DNA from: Aquisphaera giovannonii
GTDB taxonomy: Bacteria > Planctomycetota > Planctomycetia > Isosphaerales > Isosphaeraceae
Direction of reading: 5' to 3'
DNA length: 64,000 bases
Assembly (NCBI RefSeq): GCF_008087625.1
Contig: NZ_CP042997.1
Span: 5,766,001-5,830,000, forward strand
Positions 5,653-57,491 of this stretch are shown in pieces. The translations under genes and the position numbers were made by a program. Positions within the stretch are counted from its first letter, which is position 1, and each line of letters begins with the position of its first letter. Under the pieces are notes generated by a model. That model worked only from the letters and a program-made list of their open reading frames with translations, made no database searches and had not been told where the DNA came from.

Positions 5653-8600
5653 TCAGGAAGGTCCCGACGCATCTCCCAGCTTGATGACCACGGCCGTCAC
5701 GTCGTCCTTGAGGACTTCGGTCCCGGTGTGGCGGGTGACCGCGCGGTGGAGCTCCTCCAGGATCTCCCGCGCGGCCCGGCCCCGCGCCCCGCGGATGACC
5801 TCCAGCAGCCGCCCGCTCCCGAAGAACACCTCGTCCGGGGATGCGGCCTCCAGGATGCCGTCGGTCACCAGCACGACGAGCTCGCCCGGGCGCAGCGCGA
5901 TCGGCTCGCCGACCGGGAAGTCGGAGTGCTCCTCGAGCCCGAGGGGGAGGGAGGAGCTGCCCAGCTCGGCCCTCACCTCGCCCGCGGGGTCGAGGATGTA
6001 CCCCGGGGGGTGGCCGGCGTTGGCGTAGGTCAGCGACCGGGTCCTGGGGTCCCACCGGATCAGCAGCAGGGTGATGAAGCTCTCGCCCTCGGTCTCGCCG
6101 AACACGAACCGATTGATGCGGGTCATGATCTCGCCGAGCGTCGAGCAGGTCTGGGCGAGCCCGCGGAGGAAGGCCTGGGTGGAGGCCATCTCCAGCGCGG
6201 CGCCGATGCCGTGGCCGGCCACGTCCCCGATGACGATCCCGAGCCTCCCGTCGAGCATCGGCAGGTAATTGAACATGTCGCCCCCGGCATAGTCGGCGGG
6301 GTGGGAGACGCCGGCGATGTCGAGCCCGGCGATGGCCGGCGACTGGCGGGGCAGCATCGCCTGCTGGATCCGCTGGGCCACCTCGAGCTGGGCGAGGTTC
6401 TCGCTCAACTGCTCCGCCATCCGCCTCTGGGCCGTGATGTCGATGTGGGAGCCGACCATGCGGTACGGCCGGCCGTCGCCGTCGCGGACGGCGGCCCCGC
6501 GGGAGAGGATCCAGCGGTAGGTCCCGTCCTTGTGGCGGAGGCGGTGCTCCAGCTCGTACTCCGCGGTCCGGCCTTCCAGGTAGTCCTTGATGGCCCTGCT
6601 CGCGCGGTCGCGGTCGTCGGGATGCAGGCGGGACTCCCATTCGGCGAACGAGCTCGCGACCTCGTCCTCCGCGTGCCCGAGCATGCTCTTCCAGCGGGGC
6701 GAGAAGTAGATGGAGCCGGTCACGAGGTCCCAGTCCCAGATGCCGGCGTCGGTGCCGCGCACGGCCAGGTCGAACCGCTCCTCGCTCCGGCGGATCGCCT
6801 CGATCACCCGGCGCTTCTGGGTCACATCCTCGACGACCCCGACATAGCCGGTCAGCGCGTCGCCGATCCGGATCTCGGCCGACTTGGCGCTGGCCCAGGT
6901 CGTCCTGCCGTCGCGGTGCAGGATGCGATAGGTCGACTCGAACGGCGAGCGGTCGCGGGCCGACCGATCCCACTCGGCGCGCACGCGGTCGCGGTCCTCG
7001 GGGTGGATCGCCTCCCGCCAGTCCCCCCCCGGGGGCTCGCCGTCGCGACGCCCGGCCAGTTCCAGGTAGGCGCGGTTGGTGTAGAGGATGCCGCCCGCCG
7101 CGTCCGTGAGGAAAATGCCGAGCGGCGCCGTCTCGCTGATGGCCCGGAAGCGGGCCTCGCTCCCCCGCAGCGCGTCCTCGCCCCGCTTCCGCTCGATCGT
7201 GCCCGCGAGGATGCGGGCGACCGACGACAGGAACTCCTCCTCGTCGGGCCTCCTCGGGTGGGACTCGTCCAGGAGCACGATGAGGATGCCGTGGCGTTCG
7301 CCGTGGAAGATCGGGGCGCAGTAGAGGGGGAGGCGGGGCTCGCCGGATCCGCCGGGGCCGCCGGCGAACGCGACCTCGCGGTGCCGGTCGGGATCGCCGC
7401 AGGGGCATCGGCCGGGATGGGGCGCGGCGCAGCGGCCCAGGATCTCGGGGGGCAGGCCGCGCTGGGCCTTCGGCACGAGGGCGTCGCCTTCGCCCTCCGC
7501 GAGGAAGACCCCGCCCGCGGCCGGCGCGGCGAACCACGGCAGCGAGAGGACCAGGTCGAGCGACCGGCGCAGGAGCTCGTCCACGCCGGCCGGCTCGAGC
7601 GACATCCGGAGGACCTGGCTGATCACGCCCTGGCCCAGCAGGTGGGCCTGGACCTCGGCCGTCAATCGGCGGCGCTCGGTCATGTCGCGGACGTTGGCGA
7701 CCGCGAACGAGGCGCCGTTGAGCTCATACGAGTAGAGGGCGATGTCGGCGGGGAACTCGGTGCCGTCCTTGCGCCGGGCGAACAGGTCGCTGCCCCTGTT
7801 CATCGAACGCCGCCCATGCTCCGCGACGAATCGCTCGGCCAGGGCCCGGTGGCGGTCGCGGGCTCGCTCGGGCACGAGGATCCCCAGGGGCTGGCCGAGG
7901 AGCTCTTCCCGGGCGTAGCCGAACATCCGCTCCGCCTCCCGGTTCACCAGGACGATCCGGCCGCCCCGATCCACCGCGACGGTGCCGTCCGGCGAGAATT
8001 CCACGACCGACCGGACCAGGCCGGCGGCCCGCCTCTGCTCGGTGACGTCGAGGACGGAGGCGAGGACGAGGAGACGCCCGTCCTGGCGGATGGGGTTCAG
8101 GGCGACCAGGAGATGGATGATGCGCCCATCCTTGCCCAGGCCGCGGACGTCCCGGGAGGCGGCCATCGGGCGGGCCCGCGGATCCCGGAAATAGGCCTCC
8201 ATGTCCCGGCGATGGCCCTCGCGGGGTGGCTCCGGCATCAGGACCTCGATCGGCCGGCCGTGCAGCTCCTCCCGGTCGTAGCCGAAGATGACCTCGGCCT
8301 GCCGGTTCACCAGCACGATCCTGCCCGCCTCGTCGACCATCACGAACCCGGCCAGGGCCGATTCGATGACGGACCGGAGCCGGAGCTCCGCCTGCTTGCC
8401 CTCGGAGACGTCCCGGAAGACCGCCACCCCGCCGGCCGGCTCTCCCCCCGCCTCGTCCCGCAGCGGCACGGCGCTGTGCTGCAGCCAGAGGCCGTCCGGC
8501 CTGGAGGGGTTGCGCAGGAACATGTCCTCCGCCTGGACGGTCTCGCCCCGGATCGCCCGCGCCAGGGGAAACCGGCCCGCGGGGTAGGGGGTGATCCGGT

Positions 8601-30544: not shown

Positions 30545-31213
30545 TCAGGCGGACAGGGCCTTCCTCAGCGGGCAATCCTCCCCGATCGGATCACCCCGGC
30601 GATACCGCTGCAACAGCTCCTGGGACCGCCGGGCCAGCATCCGGCGCACCTCCCGCCGCTTCCCCTTGACCCTGGCGATGACCATGTTGTCGTATCCAGT
30701 CGTCTGGTGCCGCATCCAGGCGATCACCGCGGCCTCGGCCCGCTCCTGGATGGGGATGCGTTCCGTCCGGGCGACCGTCCCGCTGCCGACCGGCGTGGCG
30801 TGCTCGGTGACGGCACGGGCCAGTCGGTCGGCCAGGTCGGCGTGGCCGGGGTGGAAGGCGAGGAACGACAGGATCGCCCCGTGGAAGTCCTCCACGTACT
30901 CACCCTGGAGCCGATCGCGGCGACGGGCCGCCGCCTCCTGCTTCCTGGCATAGCTTTCGGTGGACCGCTCGGCGTCGAGCCCGGCCCGGAGCCGCTCGAT
31001 GGTCGCCGACGGTGCCCAGACGCCCCTGGAGAAGGTCCTGCGGCCCACCTTCTCCTGGACCACCCAGTGCTCCCCGGCGGCCTTGACCCGACGGGTCAGG
31101 CCGGCGTCACCCGGCGGCAAGAGGGCCCAGCCCTCCGGGGCGGACCTGACCGTGCCATCGGCGGCTCGGACGGTGTTCGAGGTCGGGCCGGGGGCGAAGC
31201 GGTTGTCGTCCAT
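30545..31213 (-). CDS. DUF2293 domain-containing protein
   Basis: A 222 aa protein. The C-terminal ~90 residues match the DUF2293 pattern: AVIAWMRHQTTGYDNM, then RVKGKRREVRRMLARRSQELL and a final YRRG. The N-terminal part contains a WALLPPGDAGLTRRVKAAG segment typical of the family's variable front. The function is unknown, although the basic C-terminus suggests nucleic-acid contact. The start is the ATG at 31213. It lies 127 bp downstream of a small hypothetical gene on the same strand. Confidence 0.85.
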   Translation of the reverse strand: MDDNRFAPGPTSNTVRAADGTVRSAPEGWALLPPGDAGLTRRVKAAGEHWVVQEKVGRRTFSRGVWAPSATIERLRAGLDAERSTESYARKQEAAARRRDRLQGEYVEDFHGAILSFLAFHPGHADLADRLARAVTEHATPVGSGTVARTERIPIQERAEAAVIAWMRHQTTGYDNMVIARVKGKRREVRRMLARRSQELLQRYRRGDPIGEDCPLRKALSA

Positions 31214-51397: not shown

Positions 51398-53116
51398 TCA
51401 GGAGGCCTGGTAGGTGCCGAAGATGTTGTCGTTGGACGTGCTGGCGCGGTTGCCGATCACGCGGGTCTTGCCCTTCAGCGTGGTCGCCCCCGACGCGATG
51501 TACAGGCCGCCGCCGACGCCGGTGCCGGGGGCCCCTCCGTCCTCGGCGGCGTTCGCCAGCACGAGCGTGTCGGCGATCGTCGTGGCGGCGGACGTGTAGA
51601 GGCCGCCCCCGAAGCCGTTCCCTCCGCCCGACCCGCCGCGTGCCATGTTGCCCACGAGCCTGCTCCCGGACAGCACCAGGTTCCCCTGGTTCATGATGGC
51701 GCCCCCCACGCCGTCGCCCGCCGTGGCGCCGCCCGCGCCGGAGCCGCCCTCGGCCTGGTTGAGCAGGAAGAATCCGCCCGTGATGGACAGGCCCCCGTCG
51801 TTGTTGTGGATGGCCCCTCCGATCGCGGACCCCCCCGCGCCGCCGGTGTCCGACGCCCCGCCCCCGACCGCCCGATTCCCGAGGAACCCCGTGTTCGCGA
51901 TCGTGGCGGGTTGCGCGAAGAGCAGGTCGATCGCGCCGCCGGCCGCGAGGCCGCCGAAGCCGCCGGAGCTCGACCCGCCCTGGGCACGATTGCCGATGAG
52001 CATGTCCCCTGACAGGGCGAGGGGTCCACCCCCCTGGACGGCGATCGCGCCGCCGACCCCGAGCCCGCCCCCAACGCTGCCGATCGCGGCGTTGCCGGTG
52101 AGGGTGCTGTTGCTCACGGTGAGGTCGGCGGAATCCTGGATGGCGCCGCCCGATCCGGATCCGCCGAAGAGGCCGCTCTGGCCGCCGATCGCCTGATTCC
52201 CGTCGAAGAGGCTGCCCGTCACCGTCACGGTCGTGGCCGGGCCGAAGAACCCGCCGCCGAGGAGGTCCAGGGCGCCGCCCTGCGCGTTCCCGGTGGCGAC
52301 GGCGACGTTGCCGCGGAAGGTCGTGCCCGCGATCGTCACGACGGCGCCGCCATCGACGTGGATGGCACCGCCGTCGGCGCCGCCGCCCCCTCCCAGGGCT
52401 TTGTTCCCGACGAACGTGCTCGAGGAGATGTCGAGAACCGTGTTGTACGTCGAGAGGATGCCGGCGCCGACCGCCGTGGTCCCCTGGCTCGTGTTGCGGG
52501 AGACGTCGCTGCGGACGACGGTCAGGGTGCCCTCGTTGAAGACGCCCGCCGCCAGGCTGAGGCCGGCCGACGGCCCGCCCGCGGTGTTGGCCGACACGGA
52601 GGAGTCGGTGATGGTCATGGTCCCGCCGTTGGTGATGCCCCCGCCCTGGTTCCCGGTCACGACGACGTGGTCCAGGGTCGCGGTCGCGAAGTTGAGGATC
52701 CCGGGATCATTGGCGTCGCCCCCCGCGATCGTGAGGCCGGAGAGGGAGGCCGAGATCGGCGGCGGCATGGGGTCGCCGTACGGGGTCTCGATCAGGAAGA
52801 CGCCGCTCGTGCCGCCGCCGCTGATCGTCAGCTTGCCGGCGCCCGGGCCCCGGATCGACACGCCGGTGTCCACGACGAGCGGCCCGCTCGTCAGCGTGAG
52901 CGTCCCCGACAAGCTGCCGGCGAACTTGATCGTGTCGCCGGTCCGCGCCGCCGCGAGGTCCGCGCGGAGCGATCCGACTCCGTCGTCGTTCAGGTTCTGG
53001 ACGACCAGGGTGCTCAGCAGCGCCCGGCCTTCCATCGCGTCGAGCCGGGGGCGGAGTCTCCGAGCCTGGCGCCGGATGCGGGCGGCGCGGGGCCTCATCC
53101 TCGGATTCAAAATCAT
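51398..53116 (-). CDS. Exported right-handed beta-helix surface protein
   Basis: A 572 aa protein. The first ~35 residues include the planctomycete N-terminal export motif (RLDAMEGRALLST). The rest is a Gly/Ala/Ser/Thr-rich array of short repeats of the type GGGAIxxxGG...xxNxAxGG, typical of parallel beta-helix or polymorphic-membrane-protein-like folds. Single repeats include GGAIHVDGG, GGAIQDSAD and GGAIHNNDG. It probably lies on the cell surface or is secreted. The ATG at 53116 follows AAGGAG. No catalytic motif is seen, and Gly-rich repeats make domain boundaries uncertain. Confidence 0.85.
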   Translation of the reverse strand: MILNPRMRPRAARIRRQARRLRPRLDAMEGRALLSTLVVQNLNDDGVGSLRADLAAARTGDTIKFAGSLSGTLTLTSGPLVVDTGVSIRGPGAGKLTISGGGTSGVFLIETPYGDPMPPPISASLSGLTIAGGDANDPGILNFATATLDHVVVTGNQGGGITNGGTMTITDSSVSANTAGGPSAGLSLAAGVFNEGTLTVVRSDVSRNTSQGTTAVGAGILSTYNTVLDISSSTFVGNKALGGGGGADGGAIHVDGGAVVTIAGTTFRGNVAVATGNAQGGALDLLGGGFFGPATTVTVTGSLFDGNQAIGGQSGLFGGSGSGGAIQDSADLTVSNSTLTGNAAIGSVGGGLGVGGAIAVQGGGPLALSGDMLIGNRAQGGSSSGGFGGLAAGGAIDLLFAQPATIANTGFLGNRAVGGGASDTGGAGGSAIGGAIHNNDGGLSITGGFFLLNQAEGGSGAGGATAGDGVGGAIMNQGNLVLSGSRLVGNMARGGSGGGNGFGGGLYTSAATTIADTLVLANAAEDGGAPGTGVGGGLYIASGATTLKGKTRVIGNRASTSNDNIFGTYQAS

Positions 53117-53286: not shown

Positions 53287-55440
53287 TCAGAAAAGTGGCC
53301 GATTGGCCAGCAGCCAGAGCCTCTGGAGCCGCTGCCTGAGTGCCGTCACCTCCTTCCTCCAGGGACGATCGAGGGCACGCCTGCCCCCGAGCGAATGGAA
53401 ACCGGTGAACGCCAGCCCGCACGCGGCCGAGCCGATGGCGAGCAGGACCAACTGGCTCGGCTCGGGGACGGGAGTGAGGACGAACCCGTGCGGAGAAGCG
53501 AGAGTGAGGACCTCGCCGAAGGCCATGCCGCACCGGTCTCTCATGCCCGTCAACTCGGAGACCACCTCTCGCCGGATATAGCCCCGCTCTTCCATGTCCG
53601 CCGGGCTGGCCCGTCGCAGCACGCGCAGGCCGGTGCCGACGATCTGGCCCCGGTCGTTGATGTCGGTCGCGGCGAGCAGGTACCAGCCCGCACCCTCGGG
53701 GATGAACGCGTTCAGGTCCACCATCCGCGTCCCGTCATGAAGGAAGGGACGCCAACCTTCGGACACGAACTCGTCATGTCCCGGGAGCCTGCGGGCGATC
53801 TGTGCCCGGCCGACGACCTGGCCCATGTTGTTGATGCCGGCCCCTTGCGATTGTCTCCCCCCCAGGGTGCCGAGGTCGTCGGTCGACGGGTCGATCGGCC
53901 GGTTCGGCGCCGCCCGAAAGGCGTGGCGAGCGGGCTGGAGCATGCCGGGCAAGTCGGGGATGGGCAGGCGCAGGTCCAGGTCGCCGACGGCCTCACCCGC
54001 GTCGTTGACGTCCCTCACCCTGGTGGCATCATCGTCCCATGGCGCGTCGCCGCGGGCGATGAGGCCCCTCCTCGCGATGGGCATGCCGGCCCGGACTTCC
54101 CCGCGCTCGTCGAGGTCCATGTCCAGGGCATCCGTCCTCAATTCCGTCCGGGGAAATATCCCGTAGTGGTCGGTCGCGTATTCCGGCTCACGGACTCGGC
54201 CCCCCACGACGTCCGTCGCCCGATCGATCGGACGGCCCGGGGCGGTCCGGAACATGCGGAACGCGCCCGATGGTGTCATCGAATATCCCGCAACCTGCCC
54301 CCGGTCATTGATCCGCATGGGATACGTCGCCGGGCCTCCGAGAGACCCCAGGTCGGTGATTCGATAGGTCCGCGCGTGATAATCCGGCGACCGGAGCGGG
54401 ATCACCGCGGCCGCCACGCAGGCCATCGCACCGACGCCCAGGCGCGACAGGACTCGCGGCGTCCCCCCGCGCATGATCGCGGCCAGGCGGCTCCGGATCC
54501 GTCCCACCTCGCCGAGGCCACTGGCCCCCGCGGGCAGCGGCCCCGACTCGGACAGGAAATCGACGGCGTCCAGCAGCGCGGCGGAGTAGGCGCGAGAGGA
54601 GCCGGGGAGGGCCCAGAGAACCCAGGCGTCGCAGCAATGCTCCTCCGCGTCGTGCAGCTCGCGGCGAGCCCACCAGACCGCGGGGCACCACCAGTAGAGG
54701 GTCGTGACCGCCAGCTCCAGCAGGCGCACGAGGTGGTCGCGCCGGCGGAAGTGGGCCAGCTCATGGACGAGCAGGGCATCCTGCTTGGGCTCGTCGAGCA
54801 GGCCCCAGAAGTCGGACGGGATGAGGATCCGGGGCCGGCCTCCGGCGGCCCAGAGCAGCGGCGAGACCGCGCCGGGGATGAGCCGGATGCCCGGCGCCTG
54901 GTCGGGGCGGATGCCGAGTTTTTCGGCCAGTTGCCTCGCCCGCTCCTGGAGCGGCTGGGGCGCCTGGCGGGCGTCCTTCAGCCGGGCCGAGGCGCCCGCC
55001 AGTCGGGCCAGGACGATCGCCAGCCAGGCCGCCGAGATCGCGCCCCAGGCGGCCGCGACGATCGTCGGCCAGCGATCGGGGGCCCACTGGGCCGCGCTCA
55101 GGATCGCGGGCCGGACGGCCCTGGGATAGGCTCTTGCCTCTTCCTCGGCCGCGCCGGAAGCCTGCCCGCCGGCCCCCGGCGCGGGCGAGGCGGTCTCGTC
55201 CGGATGCCGCGGCACGCCCCGGCCCCCCGGCGAGGAATCCACGCCGGGCCATCGCGGAGACAGGCGCGGGGCCAGCCAGTCGGTCGACAAGGGGGGCAGC
55301 AGGAGCTTCAGGAGGAGCAGGACCCAGATCGCATGCGTCAGGGCGGGCCGGCGTACTACCATGTCCACGACGAGGACCGCCGGGGCCAGCAGCGTCACCA
55401 GGATCGCGTTCGCCAGGAGGGCGCGAAGCAGGGCATCCAA
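53287..55440 (-). CDS. M56 (BlaR1-type) peptidase fused to HAF repeats and a PEP-CTERM tail
   Basis: A 717 aa protein. The N-terminal ~340 residues are a BlaR1/MecR1-type M56 metalloprotease with several membrane helices and the zinc motif H226-E227-L-A-H230 (VHELAHFRRRD), then CCDAW. From about residue 350 the protein does not carry a penicillin sensor. Instead it has HAF-type repeats (TDLGSLGGPATYPMRINDRG, GINNMGQVVGRA, TDINDRGQIVGTG). Near the end is a PEP-CTERM-like sorting motif (VPEPSQLVLLAIGSAACGLA at ~658-677, then RR), followed by a 30-residue basic tail. It lies just downstream of a BlaI-type regulator gene (12 bp gap), so it belongs to that operon. Confidence 0.85.
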   Translation of the reverse strand: MDALLRALLANAILVTLLAPAVLVVDMVVRRPALTHAIWVLLLLKLLLPPLSTDWLAPRLSPRWPGVDSSPGGRGVPRHPDETASPAPGAGGQASGAAEEEARAYPRAVRPAILSAAQWAPDRWPTIVAAAWGAISAAWLAIVLARLAGASARLKDARQAPQPLQERARQLAEKLGIRPDQAPGIRLIPGAVSPLLWAAGGRPRILIPSDFWGLLDEPKQDALLVHELAHFRRRDHLVRLLELAVTTLYWWCPAVWWARRELHDAEEHCCDAWVLWALPGSSRAYSAALLDAVDFLSESGPLPAGASGLGEVGRIRSRLAAIMRGGTPRVLSRLGVGAMACVAAAVIPLRSPDYHARTYRITDLGSLGGPATYPMRINDRGQVAGYSMTPSGAFRMFRTAPGRPIDRATDVVGGRVREPEYATDHYGIFPRTELRTDALDMDLDERGEVRAGMPIARRGLIARGDAPWDDDATRVRDVNDAGEAVGDLDLRLPIPDLPGMLQPARHAFRAAPNRPIDPSTDDLGTLGGRQSQGAGINNMGQVVGRAQIARRLPGHDEFVSEGWRPFLHDGTRMVDLNAFIPEGAGWYLLAATDINDRGQIVGTGLRVLRRASPADMEERGYIRREVVSELTGMRDRCGMAFGEVLTLASPHGFVLTPVPEPSQLVLLAIGSAACGLAFTGFHSLGGRRALDRPWRKEVTALRQRLQRLWLLANRPLF

Positions 55441-55452
55441 GGCCGCCTCCTC

Positions 55453-55863
55453 TCAGGTCTCCCCCTCGCCCCCGTGGTCCTTCGCCCCCTCGTCGAGCGT
55501 CTCGAGGAAGTCCCGAAGGACCTTCCGGTCCCGGGCGGGCATCCGCCGGCCCCGGACGAGGTGGCTGAATAGCGCCCCCAGCGAGCCGCCGCAGAGCTGG
55601 TCGGCGAGGCGCCGCAGCCTCCGGTCCACCAGGTCGTCGCGGCCGATCGCGGCCTCGAAGACCTGCACGGGGCCGGTGCGGTCGCGCCGGATGCACCCCT
55701 TCGCCTCCAGCCGGTCGAGCAGCTTCTGCACCGTCGGATGGGCCAGCGACCTGCCCTCCGGATAGAGGCGATCGATCAACTGCCTCGCCGTGCTGGGCCC
55801 GCCCTCCCAGAGCAGCCGCAGGATCGCGAGCTCGGCCTCGGTGACGTCCCCCGCAACTCCCAT
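55453..55863 (-). CDS. BlaI/MecI-family transcriptional regulator
   Basis: A 136 aa winged-helix repressor. The family pattern is clear: DVTEAELAILRLLWEGGPST, LYPEGRSLAHPTVQKLLDRL and EAKGCIRRDRTGPVQVFEAA. These proteins bind palindromes containing TACA/TGTA and are cleaved or released by the partner M56 protease. The ATG at 55863 is preceded by GGAGAG; a frame start at 55887 is possible but lies at the predicted transcript start. It precedes the M56 gene as in bla operons. Confidence 0.93.
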   Translation of the reverse strand: MGVAGDVTEAELAILRLLWEGGPSTARQLIDRLYPEGRSLAHPTVQKLLDRLEAKGCIRRDRTGPVQVFEAAIGRDDLVDRRLRRLADQLCGGSLGALFSHLVRGRRMPARDRKVLRDFLETLDEGAKDHGGEGET

Positions 55864-55897
55864 GGAGCTCTCCGGATCAATAGACATGCTGTCAATT

Positions 55898-55930
55898 GGT
55901 GTATTACACCGCCGGTGGCCGGCGAGTCAA
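55898..55930 (-). promoter_or_regulatory. BlaI-type operator palindrome overlapping the predicted promoter
   Basis: On the minus strand, TTGACT (55925-55930), an 18 bp spacer and TAATAC (55901-55906) form a good promoter. The -10 lies inside the perfect palindrome GGTGTATTACACC (55898-55910), the known BlaI-type TGTA/TACA operator shape. Binding here would block the promoter, consistent with autorepression of the blaI/M56 pair. Confidence 0.75.
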
Positions 55931-55999
55931 GGAGTCGGCCGGGAAATCCGGAGGAGGGGGCGATGCGGGCGGCCCGCCGCGCGGGGCGGCCCGTCATCA

Positions 56000-56028
56000 T
56001 TGTGCGCGGCGCCTCTGCCCATCAGAAT
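56000..56028 (+). promoter_or_regulatory. Predicted sigma-70 promoter of the sulfatase gene
   Basis: TTGTGC (56000-56005), a 17 bp spacer and CAGAAT (56023-56028). This would start a transcript near 56035, 40 nt before the sulfatase ATG at 56076. By-eye match only. Confidence 0.4.
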
Positions 56029-56075
56029 ACCGGTGGGCAACGACCTCGATGCAACCGGATGGGGGACTCGCCGCG

Positions 56076-57491
56076 ATGAGATCGTTCTGCGCCGCCTTCC
56101 TGGTCCTTCTCGCCTCGGGAGATGCCGACGCCGCGAATGCCACCGAGCGGCCCAGCGTGCTCTGGCTCATCGCCGAGGACCTCGGGCCCGAGCTCGGCTG
56201 CTACGGGACGCCGCAGGTGCGGACGCCGAACCTGGACCGCCTCGCGGCCGAGGGGATGAGGTTCACGAGGGCGTACACGACGGCTCCGGTCTGCTCGGCC
56301 AGCCGCTCGGCGTTCATGACCGGGATGTACCAGACGACGATCGGCGCCCACAACCACCGCTCGCACCGCGACGACGGATACCGCCTGCCCGCGGGCGTCC
56401 GGGTGCTGCCGGACTGGCTCCGCGACGCGGGATACTTCACGGCCAACGTCGTGACCCTGCCTCCGTCCGTCGGCTTCAAGGGGACGGGCAAGACGGACTG
56501 GAACTTCACGTACGACGGGAGGCCCTTCGACTCCGACCGCTGGGCCGACCTGGAGACACATCAGCCCTTCTACGCGCAGGTGAACTTCCAGGAGACGCAC
56601 CGGCCCTACCAGGCCCCGCCGCGCGCGGACCCGGCGAAGGTCGCCATCCCGCCGTACTACCCCGACCATCCCGTGACGCGCGGGGACTGGGCGCAGTACC
56701 TCGACGCGGCCGGCGAGCTGGACCGCAAGGTCGGGGCCGTGCTGCGGCAGCTGGAGGCCGACGGCCTGGCGGGGAAGACGGTGGTTGTCTTCCTCGGCGA
56801 CCACGGGCAGTCGCACGTGCGGGGCAAGCAGTTCTGCTACGAGGAGGGGCTGCACATCCCGCTGATCGTCCGCTGGCCGAAGGGGCTGCCGGCCCCCGCC
56901 GGGTATCGGCCGGGGGCCGTGGACGACCGGCTCGTCGAGGCGATCGACCTCGCGCCGACGACCCTGGACCTCGCCGGAGCGGGGAAGCCCCCGTCGATGC
57001 AGGGCCGGATCCTCTTCGGCGACCACGCCGACCCGCCCCGCACCTACGCCTTCGGCGCCCGCGACCGCTGCGACGAGACGGTCTTCCGCCTGCGGACCGC
57101 CCGCGACGCCCGCTACCGCTACATCCGCAACTTCACGCCCGACCGCCCGTTCCTCCAGCCGAACCGCTACAAGGAGCGGAGCTACCCGGTCTGGAACCTC
57201 CTGAAGGAGCTGGATACGCAGGGCAAGCTGACGCCCGCTCAGAAGGCACTCACCGCGCCGACCATGCCGGCCGAGGAGCTCTACGACCTCGAGGCGGACC
57301 CGCACGAGGTCCGCAACCTGACCGTGTCCGATCAGCCCGCGCACCGCGAGGCCCTCGGGCGCCTGCGGGGCGTGCTCGACCGCTGGATCGAGGAGACCGA
57401 CGACCAGGGCCGGACCTTCGAGCCCGCGGGCGTCGCCGCGGCCGAGGGTGCGACGCGGCCGGCTTCGAAGGCCCGCGCGGGGGCGCGGTGA
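56076..57491 (+). CDS. Exported sulfatase (formylglycine-dependent)
   Basis: A 471 aa sulfatase. The signal peptide is MRSFCAAFLVLLASG... and the active-site Cys for formylglycine formation is at ~73 in PVCSASRSAF, matching C-x-(A/P)-S-R. Other sulfatase metal-site parts are LWLIAEDLGPELG and VFLGDHGQSH. The target sulfated glycan or lipid is unknown; planctomycetes carry many such genes. The ATG at 56076 begins at the signal peptide. It is divergent from the BlaI gene and convergent with the metallopeptidase. Confidence 0.93.
   Translation: MRSFCAAFLVLLASGDADAANATERPSVLWLIAEDLGPELGCYGTPQVRTPNLDRLAAEGMRFTRAYTTAPVCSASRSAFMTGMYQTTIGAHNHRSHRDDGYRLPAGVRVLPDWLRDAGYFTANVVTLPPSVGFKGTGKTDWNFTYDGRPFDSDRWADLETHQPFYAQVNFQETHRPYQAPPRADPAKVAIPPYYPDHPVTRGDWAQYLDAAGELDRKVGAVLRQLEADGLAGKTVVVFLGDHGQSHVRGKQFCYEEGLHIPLIVRWPKGLPAPAGYRPGAVDDRLVEAIDLAPTTLDLAGAGKPPSMQGRILFGDHADPPRTYAFGARDRCDETVFRLRTARDARYRYIRNFTPDRPFLQPNRYKERSYPVWNLLKELDTQGKLTPAQKALTAPTMPAEELYDLEADPHEVRNLTVSDQPAHREALGRLRGVLDRWIEETDDQGRTFEPAGVAAAEGATRPASKARAGAR

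Follow-up and report, generated by a model that had tools for sequence, protein, structure and literature searches.

BlaR1 and its partner repressor BlaI are best known as an antibiotic switch. In Bacillus licheniformis, the BlaR1 residues that matter are H212, E213, H216, D221, E253, D257 and Y272, as listed in part of the published account (PMC3356374), and in Staphylococcus aureus BlaR1 cuts BlaI directly, between Asn101 and Phe102, according to excerpts of a second study (PMC9834060). The exported PEP-CTERM proteins are described, in a portion of their original report (PMC1569441), as nearly always possessing a signal peptide and no transmembrane (TM) segment in between. Here we analyse a gene of the planctomycete Aquisphaera giovannonii that combines features of both. 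It lies in a stretch of 64,000 nucleotides (contig NZ_CP042997.1, positions 5,766,001 to 5,830,000; hereafter the window), where one open reading frame (ORF) on the minus strand (53287..55440) joins a BlaR1-type M56 peptidase to HAF repeats. On balance we favour the reading that the product acts as a receptor in the manner of BlaR1, with a propeller for its ectodomain, and would inactivate BlaI and thereby derepress its own cassette.

The fusion gene encodes 717 aa, starts with TTG preceded by GAGGAGG and contains no internal stop codons. Its N-terminal part matches Pfam Peptidase_M56 over residues 8-321 (54478..55419, minus strand; E 6.4e-25, 88.4 bits, cut-off 31), a region that takes in TM1-TM3 and the greater part of the cytoplasmic zinc domain. 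The NCBIfam profile HAF_rpt (TIGR02913) matches the protein in three stretches (E 5.8e-14, 51.8 bits, cut-off 22.65), and residues 357-657 (53470..54372, minus strand) are taken up by the HAF-repeat ectodomain. Hydropathy places TM segments at residues 7-25, 33-51, 127-145, 330-348 and 664-682, TM4 (330-348) following the Peptidase_M56 match. The C-terminal end consists of PVPEPSQLVLLAIG, a TM stretch and a tail of 35 residues (53290..53394, minus strand); residues 657-682 (53395..53472, minus strand), made up of the PVPEP motif and the fifth TM segment, are PEP-CTERM-like. The predicted topology is therefore one of four TM segments, an ectodomain and a fifth TM segment. A preliminary description of this DNA had placed a BlaR1-type M56 protease and HAF repeats in one protein, with the sensor of a bla-type regulator replaced by the repeats. 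The single frame and the profile matches above cut-off bear out the first statement, and the second agrees with the M56 catalytic residues, the BlaI neighbour and the failure to find a penicillin-binding domain.

Seven residues of the M56 half (H226, E227, H230, D235, E267, D271 and Y285) correspond by motif and spacing to those required in BlaR1. H226, E227 and H230 belong to the zinc motif HELAH (54751..54765, minus strand), placed by motif and spacing against the B. licheniformis protein as partly documented in PMC3356374; E267 and D271 form an ExxxD motif (54628..54642, minus strand) and would be, by spacing, the third zinc ligand and its partner. The spacing of Y285 is one residue off relative to B. 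licheniformis BlaR1, and this residue is aligned to a Tyr of S. aureus BlaR1; in the alignment to the latter a one-residue gap adjoins E267. The TM positions agree with the BlaR1 topology given in the same excerpts (PMC3356374), and the outside loop of ~75 residues has the 63-residue L2 as its BlaR1 counterpart. A model of the full-length protein (predicted local distance difference test, pLDDT, 66) aligns over residues 4-280 to the BlaR1 cryo-EM chains 8exp, 8exs and 8ext (Z 10.3; root-mean-square deviation 4.3-8.2). Judged from its sequence, the M56 half carries the BlaR1 catalytic residues and is a predicted zinc protease, one of 18 M56 matches in this genome. No transpeptidase-type Pfam match to the fusion protein occurs among the matches listed at E up to 1, and NCBIfam blaR1_generic reaches 43.1 bits, below its equivalog cut-off of 400.

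The same domain order, for which a search in other planctomycetes had been proposed, was found three more times. A second copy in the A. giovannonii genome (G000:C1, from 6201851 on; 762 aa) is 38% identical to the window protein, a third in A. insulae (G001, NZ_JAALJH010000020.1; 785 aa) is 42% identical, and a further fusion is encoded on a Pirellulales contig. In the window, the second copy and the A. insulae copy, the junction between M56 and HAF stands at the same place. A frameshift or an assembly junction fusing two genes in this strain only, which the preliminary description had itself raised as a counter-argument, is refuted by these independent Aquisphaera copies; nothing was found in its favour and its probability is negligible. 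Because the junction recurs in the second copy and in the sister species, it reflects neither chance nor a one-strain frameshift.

The gene for a BlaI-type repressor (Penicillinase_R; E 5.9e-22, 78.6 bits, cut-off 22.6) ends 12 bp upstream of the fusion gene on the same strand (55453..55863, minus strand). Its mechanically derived ORF reaches 55887; the start MGVAGDVTEAEL at 55863 is the probable one, since the protein beginning there lines up with the starts of the two nearest relatives. A candidate BlaI operator, TAGACATGCTGTCAA, occupies 55881..55895, 17 bp ahead of this start. Upstream of the A. insulae BlaI gene, TAGACA-N3-TGTCTA stands twice, with a spacing of 26 bp, and this form, with at most one mismatch, has a single site in the 10.5 Mb of the A. 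giovannonii genome, namely 55881-55895 of the window (reversed-pattern control, 0). The operator candidate of the second copy, CAGACAGGTCGTCTT, has three mismatches to the 15-mer and one to the 13-mer.

The palindrome is a property of the M56 clade to which the Aquisphaera fusions belong (31 members, three with HAF and 28 without). With at most one mismatch, AGACA-N3-TGTCT was found in 20 of 27 BlaI upstream regions of the clade, nine times exactly (letter-shuffle mean, 0.055), and in 0 of 14 other BlaI upstream regions; the count omits four clade members without an adjoining BlaI domain (L037, L038, L044 and L063) and loci with fewer than 100 bases upstream. CTACA-N3-TGTAG, at the same tolerance, occurs in 4 of the 14 other regions and in 0 of the 27 clade regions. 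Over the 27 clade stretches (283 kb) we counted 40 sites with at most one mismatch, distributed among 21 stretches and all at or near the starts of BlaI or M56 genes; 18 of these 21 contain two or more, spaced 21-27 bp. In L037, L038 and L044 the palindrome precedes the M56 gene itself. This conservation is the best evidence, from sequence comparison, that the BlaI beside the fusion would autoregulate via the candidate operator. The exact form AGACANNNTGTCT has 0 sites in the A. giovannonii genome, since the clade members of this genome that have a scored site (L001, L002 and L009) each have a mismatch, and we therefore name no further BlaI target genes. Three same-clade M56 genes (L068, L069 and L192) are preceded by the palindrome, and no BlaI gene was found over the 10-11 kb covered; the gene for their repressor may lie at another site.

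The HAF ectodomain is predicted to be a β-propeller. That of A. insulae, modelled alone with 40 sequences, reached a pLDDT of 83 and a predicted template modelling score of 0.85. Foldseek returned 72 matches to this model at E up to 0.001, and those among the 50 listed are mostly propellers; with VIA-align, the best match was the C-terminal part of CylK (Z 28.3, 299 residues, 3.4 Å), followed by integrin alpha headpieces (Z 22-23). The shorter window HAF region fits the same propeller fold (Z 12.9, 206 residues, 3.7 Å), and Foldseek with the full-length window model gave nothing under E 0.1. Among solved structures no sequence relative of HAF was found (best E 0.77), and the repeat gains a predicted fold. 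The propeller likeness identifies no ligand, as a shared fold alone says nothing on what is bound.

The C-terminal end had been described as a PEP-CTERM tail, which stands as far as the motif is concerned: it is canonical (VPEP), a TM helix lies behind it, and the genome scan scored 21.0, slightly above the cut-off of 20.7. In the protein scans, the PEP-CTERM profiles from residue 657 stayed below both cut-offs (16.4 against 20.7 for Pfam, 15.2 against 16 for NCBIfam), and the tail is atypical. The distance from motif to stop is 61 residues, compared with a genome median of 31 (39 PEP-CTERM matches with a stop); among the 40 other matches above cut-off in the genome, 38 have 26-42 residues, one has 79, and one continues for more than 120 residues past the motif, no stop having been reached in the sequence read. 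The additional 35 residues past the TM segment, net basic, are unusual for PEP-CTERM; a short basic C-terminal cluster of the PEP-CTERM type is lacking in the 61-residue tail, and the four TM segments ahead of the motif depart from the usual PEP-CTERM plan. Moreover, the motif is altered in the nearest relatives, to VPDP in the second copy and to TPES in A. insulae. Exosortases, whose absence had been named as evidence against the original proposal, are present in all three genomes of the genus, with four matches in this genome, two of them strong (>190 bits). Exosortase sorting of the fusion protein is doubtful, since the tail is atypical and the motif altered in the two nearest copies; sorting of the window copy alone is possible, given the exosortases and its canonical motif. 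The former designation as a cell-surface sensor is better replaced by that of a periplasmic, membrane-tethered one.

The same tail could be read as part of a polyprotein, in which TM4 does no more than direct the export of a HAF/PEP-CTERM surface protein, and BlaI is controlled by the M56 half independently of the propeller; signal peptidase, cutting behind TM4, and exosortase, cutting at the PEP motif, would then free the propeller. HAF repeats with a PEP-CTERM-like tail do recur free-standing (17 of 89 free-standing HAF ORFs with a true end, by regular expression, some from one contig), the window has the same unit, and exosortases are encoded in the genome. Additionally, a PTWAQ-like site of the signal-peptidase type follows TM4 in 25 of the 28 non-HAF clade members (22 by expression, three by eye), which suggests that their ectodomain is removed by signal peptidase and that release may be normal; S. 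aureus BlaR1 is also clipped after TM4, as stated in the excerpted report (PMC9834060). In the Aquisphaera HAF members, however, this site is absent in all three (other signal-peptidase sites may be present) and Pro-Glu-Pro is lost in two, whereas the C-terminal TM segment is kept in 3/3, as against 0/28 of the other members. The tether thus appears conserved: non-HAF members may shed their ectodomain, while the Aquisphaera HAF members seem to hold theirs. The Pirellulales fusion, with neither PEP-like tail nor last TM segment, also speaks against the polyprotein, which we consider unlikely, and its release by the two peptidases equally so. In the simplest history, an M56 protein captured an entire HAF/PEP-CTERM protein minus its signal peptide, and the captured tail would now act as a second membrane anchor.

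The fusion is rare and is kept in two species of the genus Aquisphaera. In 45 Isosphaeraceae genomes (E up to 1e-40; at most 23 candidates per genome scored), matches extend into HAF only in A. giovannonii and A. insulae; a match in G013 is slightly longer, yet without HAF. A scan of 84,980 species confirmed 196 HAF relatives, and among the 80 loci kept two have M56 and HAF in one ORF, namely A. insulae and the Pirellulales contig (L108). The protein of the latter follows a BlaI gene and has seven HAF stretches and an additional C-terminal stretch. Its M56 part belongs to a distant branch of the M56 tree. A single origin for all four fusions was rejected by the approximately unbiased test (p 0.011), in which long branches are involved and the group was named after the tree had been seen; a single clade of the three Aquisphaera fusions was neither rejected (p 0.53) nor demonstrated. 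As the joint grouping was rejected, the fusion was, on sequence evidence, probably made at least twice. Elsewhere in the phylum, no further fusion was found with the HAF profile among 392 sampled genomes (five candidates scored per genome), five of which matched; in four of these the HAF ORFs are 325-523 aa long and lack M56. The Pirellulales protein matched 11 of the 392 with no row containing both halves (two candidates per genome). With so few candidates scored, rare cases could be missed. Three plasmid records gave weak M56 matches. The L108 contig itself contains two tandem BlaI-M56 cassettes (L108:1619-9245). HAF is the ectodomain in one of them; that of the other is carboxypeptidase-regulatory-like, an assignment made by eye, as was that of its BlaI.

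Presence in two distant M56 lineages and retention in three diverged Aquisphaera copies also argue against HAF as a dispensable, neutral passenger of a BlaI-linked M56 protein that is signalled from elsewhere, by the membrane state or by muropeptides acting on BlaI. Such a passenger would fit the ectodomains of the M56 clade, which vary freely as judged by eye, and the window copy, whose HAF repeats are fewer than those of its relatives; moreover, in B. licheniformis a fragment of peptidoglycan is able to inactivate BlaI, according to part of a published study (PMC3305447). We regard this explanation as quite improbable.

In all three Aquisphaera copies the genes stand in the order BlaI, M56-HAF and an exported-looking repeat protein, on the same strand. 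The third gene of the window (51398..53116, minus strand; 572 aa) encodes an N-terminal LDAMEGRALLS motif, of a type for which we use the name LExxExRxLLS-like (LLS below). Its product is beta-helix-like and 47% identical to that of the gene after the second copy; profile searches assigned no protein family to these two partners. In A. insulae a delta-60 repeat protein (478 bits) takes this position. The fusion gene and the gene behind it are separated by 170 bp in the window, at least 166 bp in A. insulae and 15 to ~270 bp in the second copy, where an unsure start makes the range wide. Behind the M56 genes of other clade members a same-strand LLS gene was found in 0 of 25 stretches, one hit (L070) having been dropped as a frame that shadows a longer opposite-strand gene; L069 has one LLS gene, divergently placed. 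The comparison is rough, as the expression misses the variant of the second copy (recognised by alignment) and may miss looser ones.

For the receptor that we favour, the following course can be envisaged. Four TM helices would hold the cytoplasmic gluzincin domain in the inner membrane in BlaR1 style, with the HAF propeller after TM4 in place of a penicillin-binding domain and the fifth TM segment re-tying it to the membrane. Binding, or loss, of a periplasmic ligand on the propeller would move the TM helices and free the protease, which would inactivate BlaI. The repressor would then leave its AGACA-N3-TGTCT-type operator, and the BlaI/M56-HAF operon would be derepressed; read-through may also derepress the gene for the exported repeat protein behind.

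Several observations weigh against this reading. In the protein, TM4 of the second copy and TM3 of A. insulae are not called at the same hydropathy threshold, the zinc domain is poorly modelled in the full-length prediction, and the window HAF region is short (301 residues, compared with 374 and 387 in the relatives), with three recognisable repeats, fewer than in the relatives. The window BlaI has His-Leu opposite Asn101-Phe102 of S. aureus in a gapless alignment, and a cut there, if made, would therefore have other preferences. Seven of the 27 clade BlaI regions have no operator at one mismatch. At up to three mismatches the window has one site, with 2.53 expected by chance, and the weight of the window site and of that in L064 consequently rests on position, the one-site genome scan and the clade counts. 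Furthermore, the third genes of the window and of A. insulae are unrelated save for the LLS motif, and in none of the three cassettes does an operator copy stand ahead of the third gene: at up to three mismatches, the window, L064 and L065 have sites only at the BlaI promoters. A small hairpin that resembles a terminator overlaps the end of the fusion gene, at its final codons and stop (two found, against 0.2 in shuffles). With no operator at the third gene and this hairpin in between, a control that includes the third gene is conjectural. Finally, M56-HAF was not found in G002, the third genome of the genus.

A more elaborate scheme, to which we attach very little probability, would make the locus an envelope-assembly switch: the double-tethered propeller would monitor whether the surface repeat protein of the downstream gene is exported or assembled, and in the window copy exosortase would set the state of the receptor by cutting its C-terminal anchor at the PEP site. 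If true, a protein-sorting enzyme would feed directly into BlaI-controlled transcription.

Across the operator from BlaI, a divergent sulfatase gene (55896-57491; 149 bits) is located in the window. This placement is comparable to the one that blaZ has in the bla divergon. A second perfect palindrome, GGTGTATTACACC (55898-55910), lies beside the operator, between the BlaI and sulfatase genes. The divergent gene near the second copy encodes a PEP-CTERM protein, and inspection by eye places a P-type ATPase and a metal-sensor-like frame at this position in A. insulae; as it differs among the three copies, the divergent gene is not a conserved partner. Elsewhere in the A. giovannonii genome, a free-standing HAF gene with an N-terminal LLS motif (L066:5962-9075) appears by eye to be disrupted by a minus-strand frame resembling a transposase (6667-8148). 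A 132-kb contig (G000:C2) encodes an exosortase near 30636 and a PEP-CTERM protein near 52890; about 1 kb beyond the latter, near 54064, lies an M56 gene with BlaI.

No M56-HAF protein was found in the literature covered by our search, with most subscription journals outside it; no publication with both 'HAF repeat' and 'planctomycet' was found, and none combining PEP-CTERM with BlaR1 or BlaI was among the matches listed. The arrangement, it had been suggested, would be a new way of signalling. HAF in the place of the sensor and an operator candidate at the promoter agree with this, but exchange of the sensor is a common occurrence among M56 proteins. By eye, the ectodomains of other M56 proteins are coiled-coil, carboxypeptidase-regulatory-like, membrane-fusion-like or of other kinds, and one from the same genome (L007) resembles the HlyD-type membrane-fusion adaptors of efflux pumps. 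As other M56 proteins also carry replaced ectodomains, M56-HAF represents a variation on a known theme rather than a class of its own. What is distinct from penicillin sensing is that a BlaR1-type engine here bears a predicted, double-anchored propeller receptor. Since a repressor, a candidate operator and a possible target gene are all available at this locus, what non-antibiotic M56 receptors sense is now directly testable, and the operator rule (AGACA-N3-TGTCT in the clade, CTACA-N3-TGTAG-like in 4 of 14 others) offers an entry to planctomycete BlaI regulons.

Overall, the locus compares with four known systems. With BlaR1/MecR1 and BlaI/MecI it shares an M56 gluzincin between TM3 and TM4, the catalytic residues, an ectodomain after TM4, the adjoining BlaI gene and a palindromic operator candidate at the blaI promoter; it differs in the predicted HAF propeller and fifth TM segment, the failure to find a penicillin-binding domain, the AGACA-N3-TGTCT operator type and the His-Leu at the S. 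aureus BlaI cut site. The other Isosphaeraceae M56/BlaI pairs, with coiled-coil or other ectodomains (by eye), belong to the same M56 clade and have the same operator type and usually the order BlaI-M56, but mostly possess a signal-peptidase-type site after TM4 and lack the C-terminal TM segment, and no same-strand LLS gene was found behind them in the 25 stretches compared. HAF-repeat PEP-CTERM exported proteins resemble the fusion in running from HAF repeats into a (L/V)LTPVPEP-TM-like end, whereas the window protein has a polytopic protease in place of a signal peptide and about twice the median distance from motif to stop. PknD is a one-protein membrane receptor with an extracytoplasmic β-propeller and a Ser/Thr kinase output. 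The propeller of Mycobacterium tuberculosis PknD is among the fold matches of HAF, with no sequence relation shown; unlike in PknD-type receptors, the output of the window protein would be a predicted repressor-directed protease.

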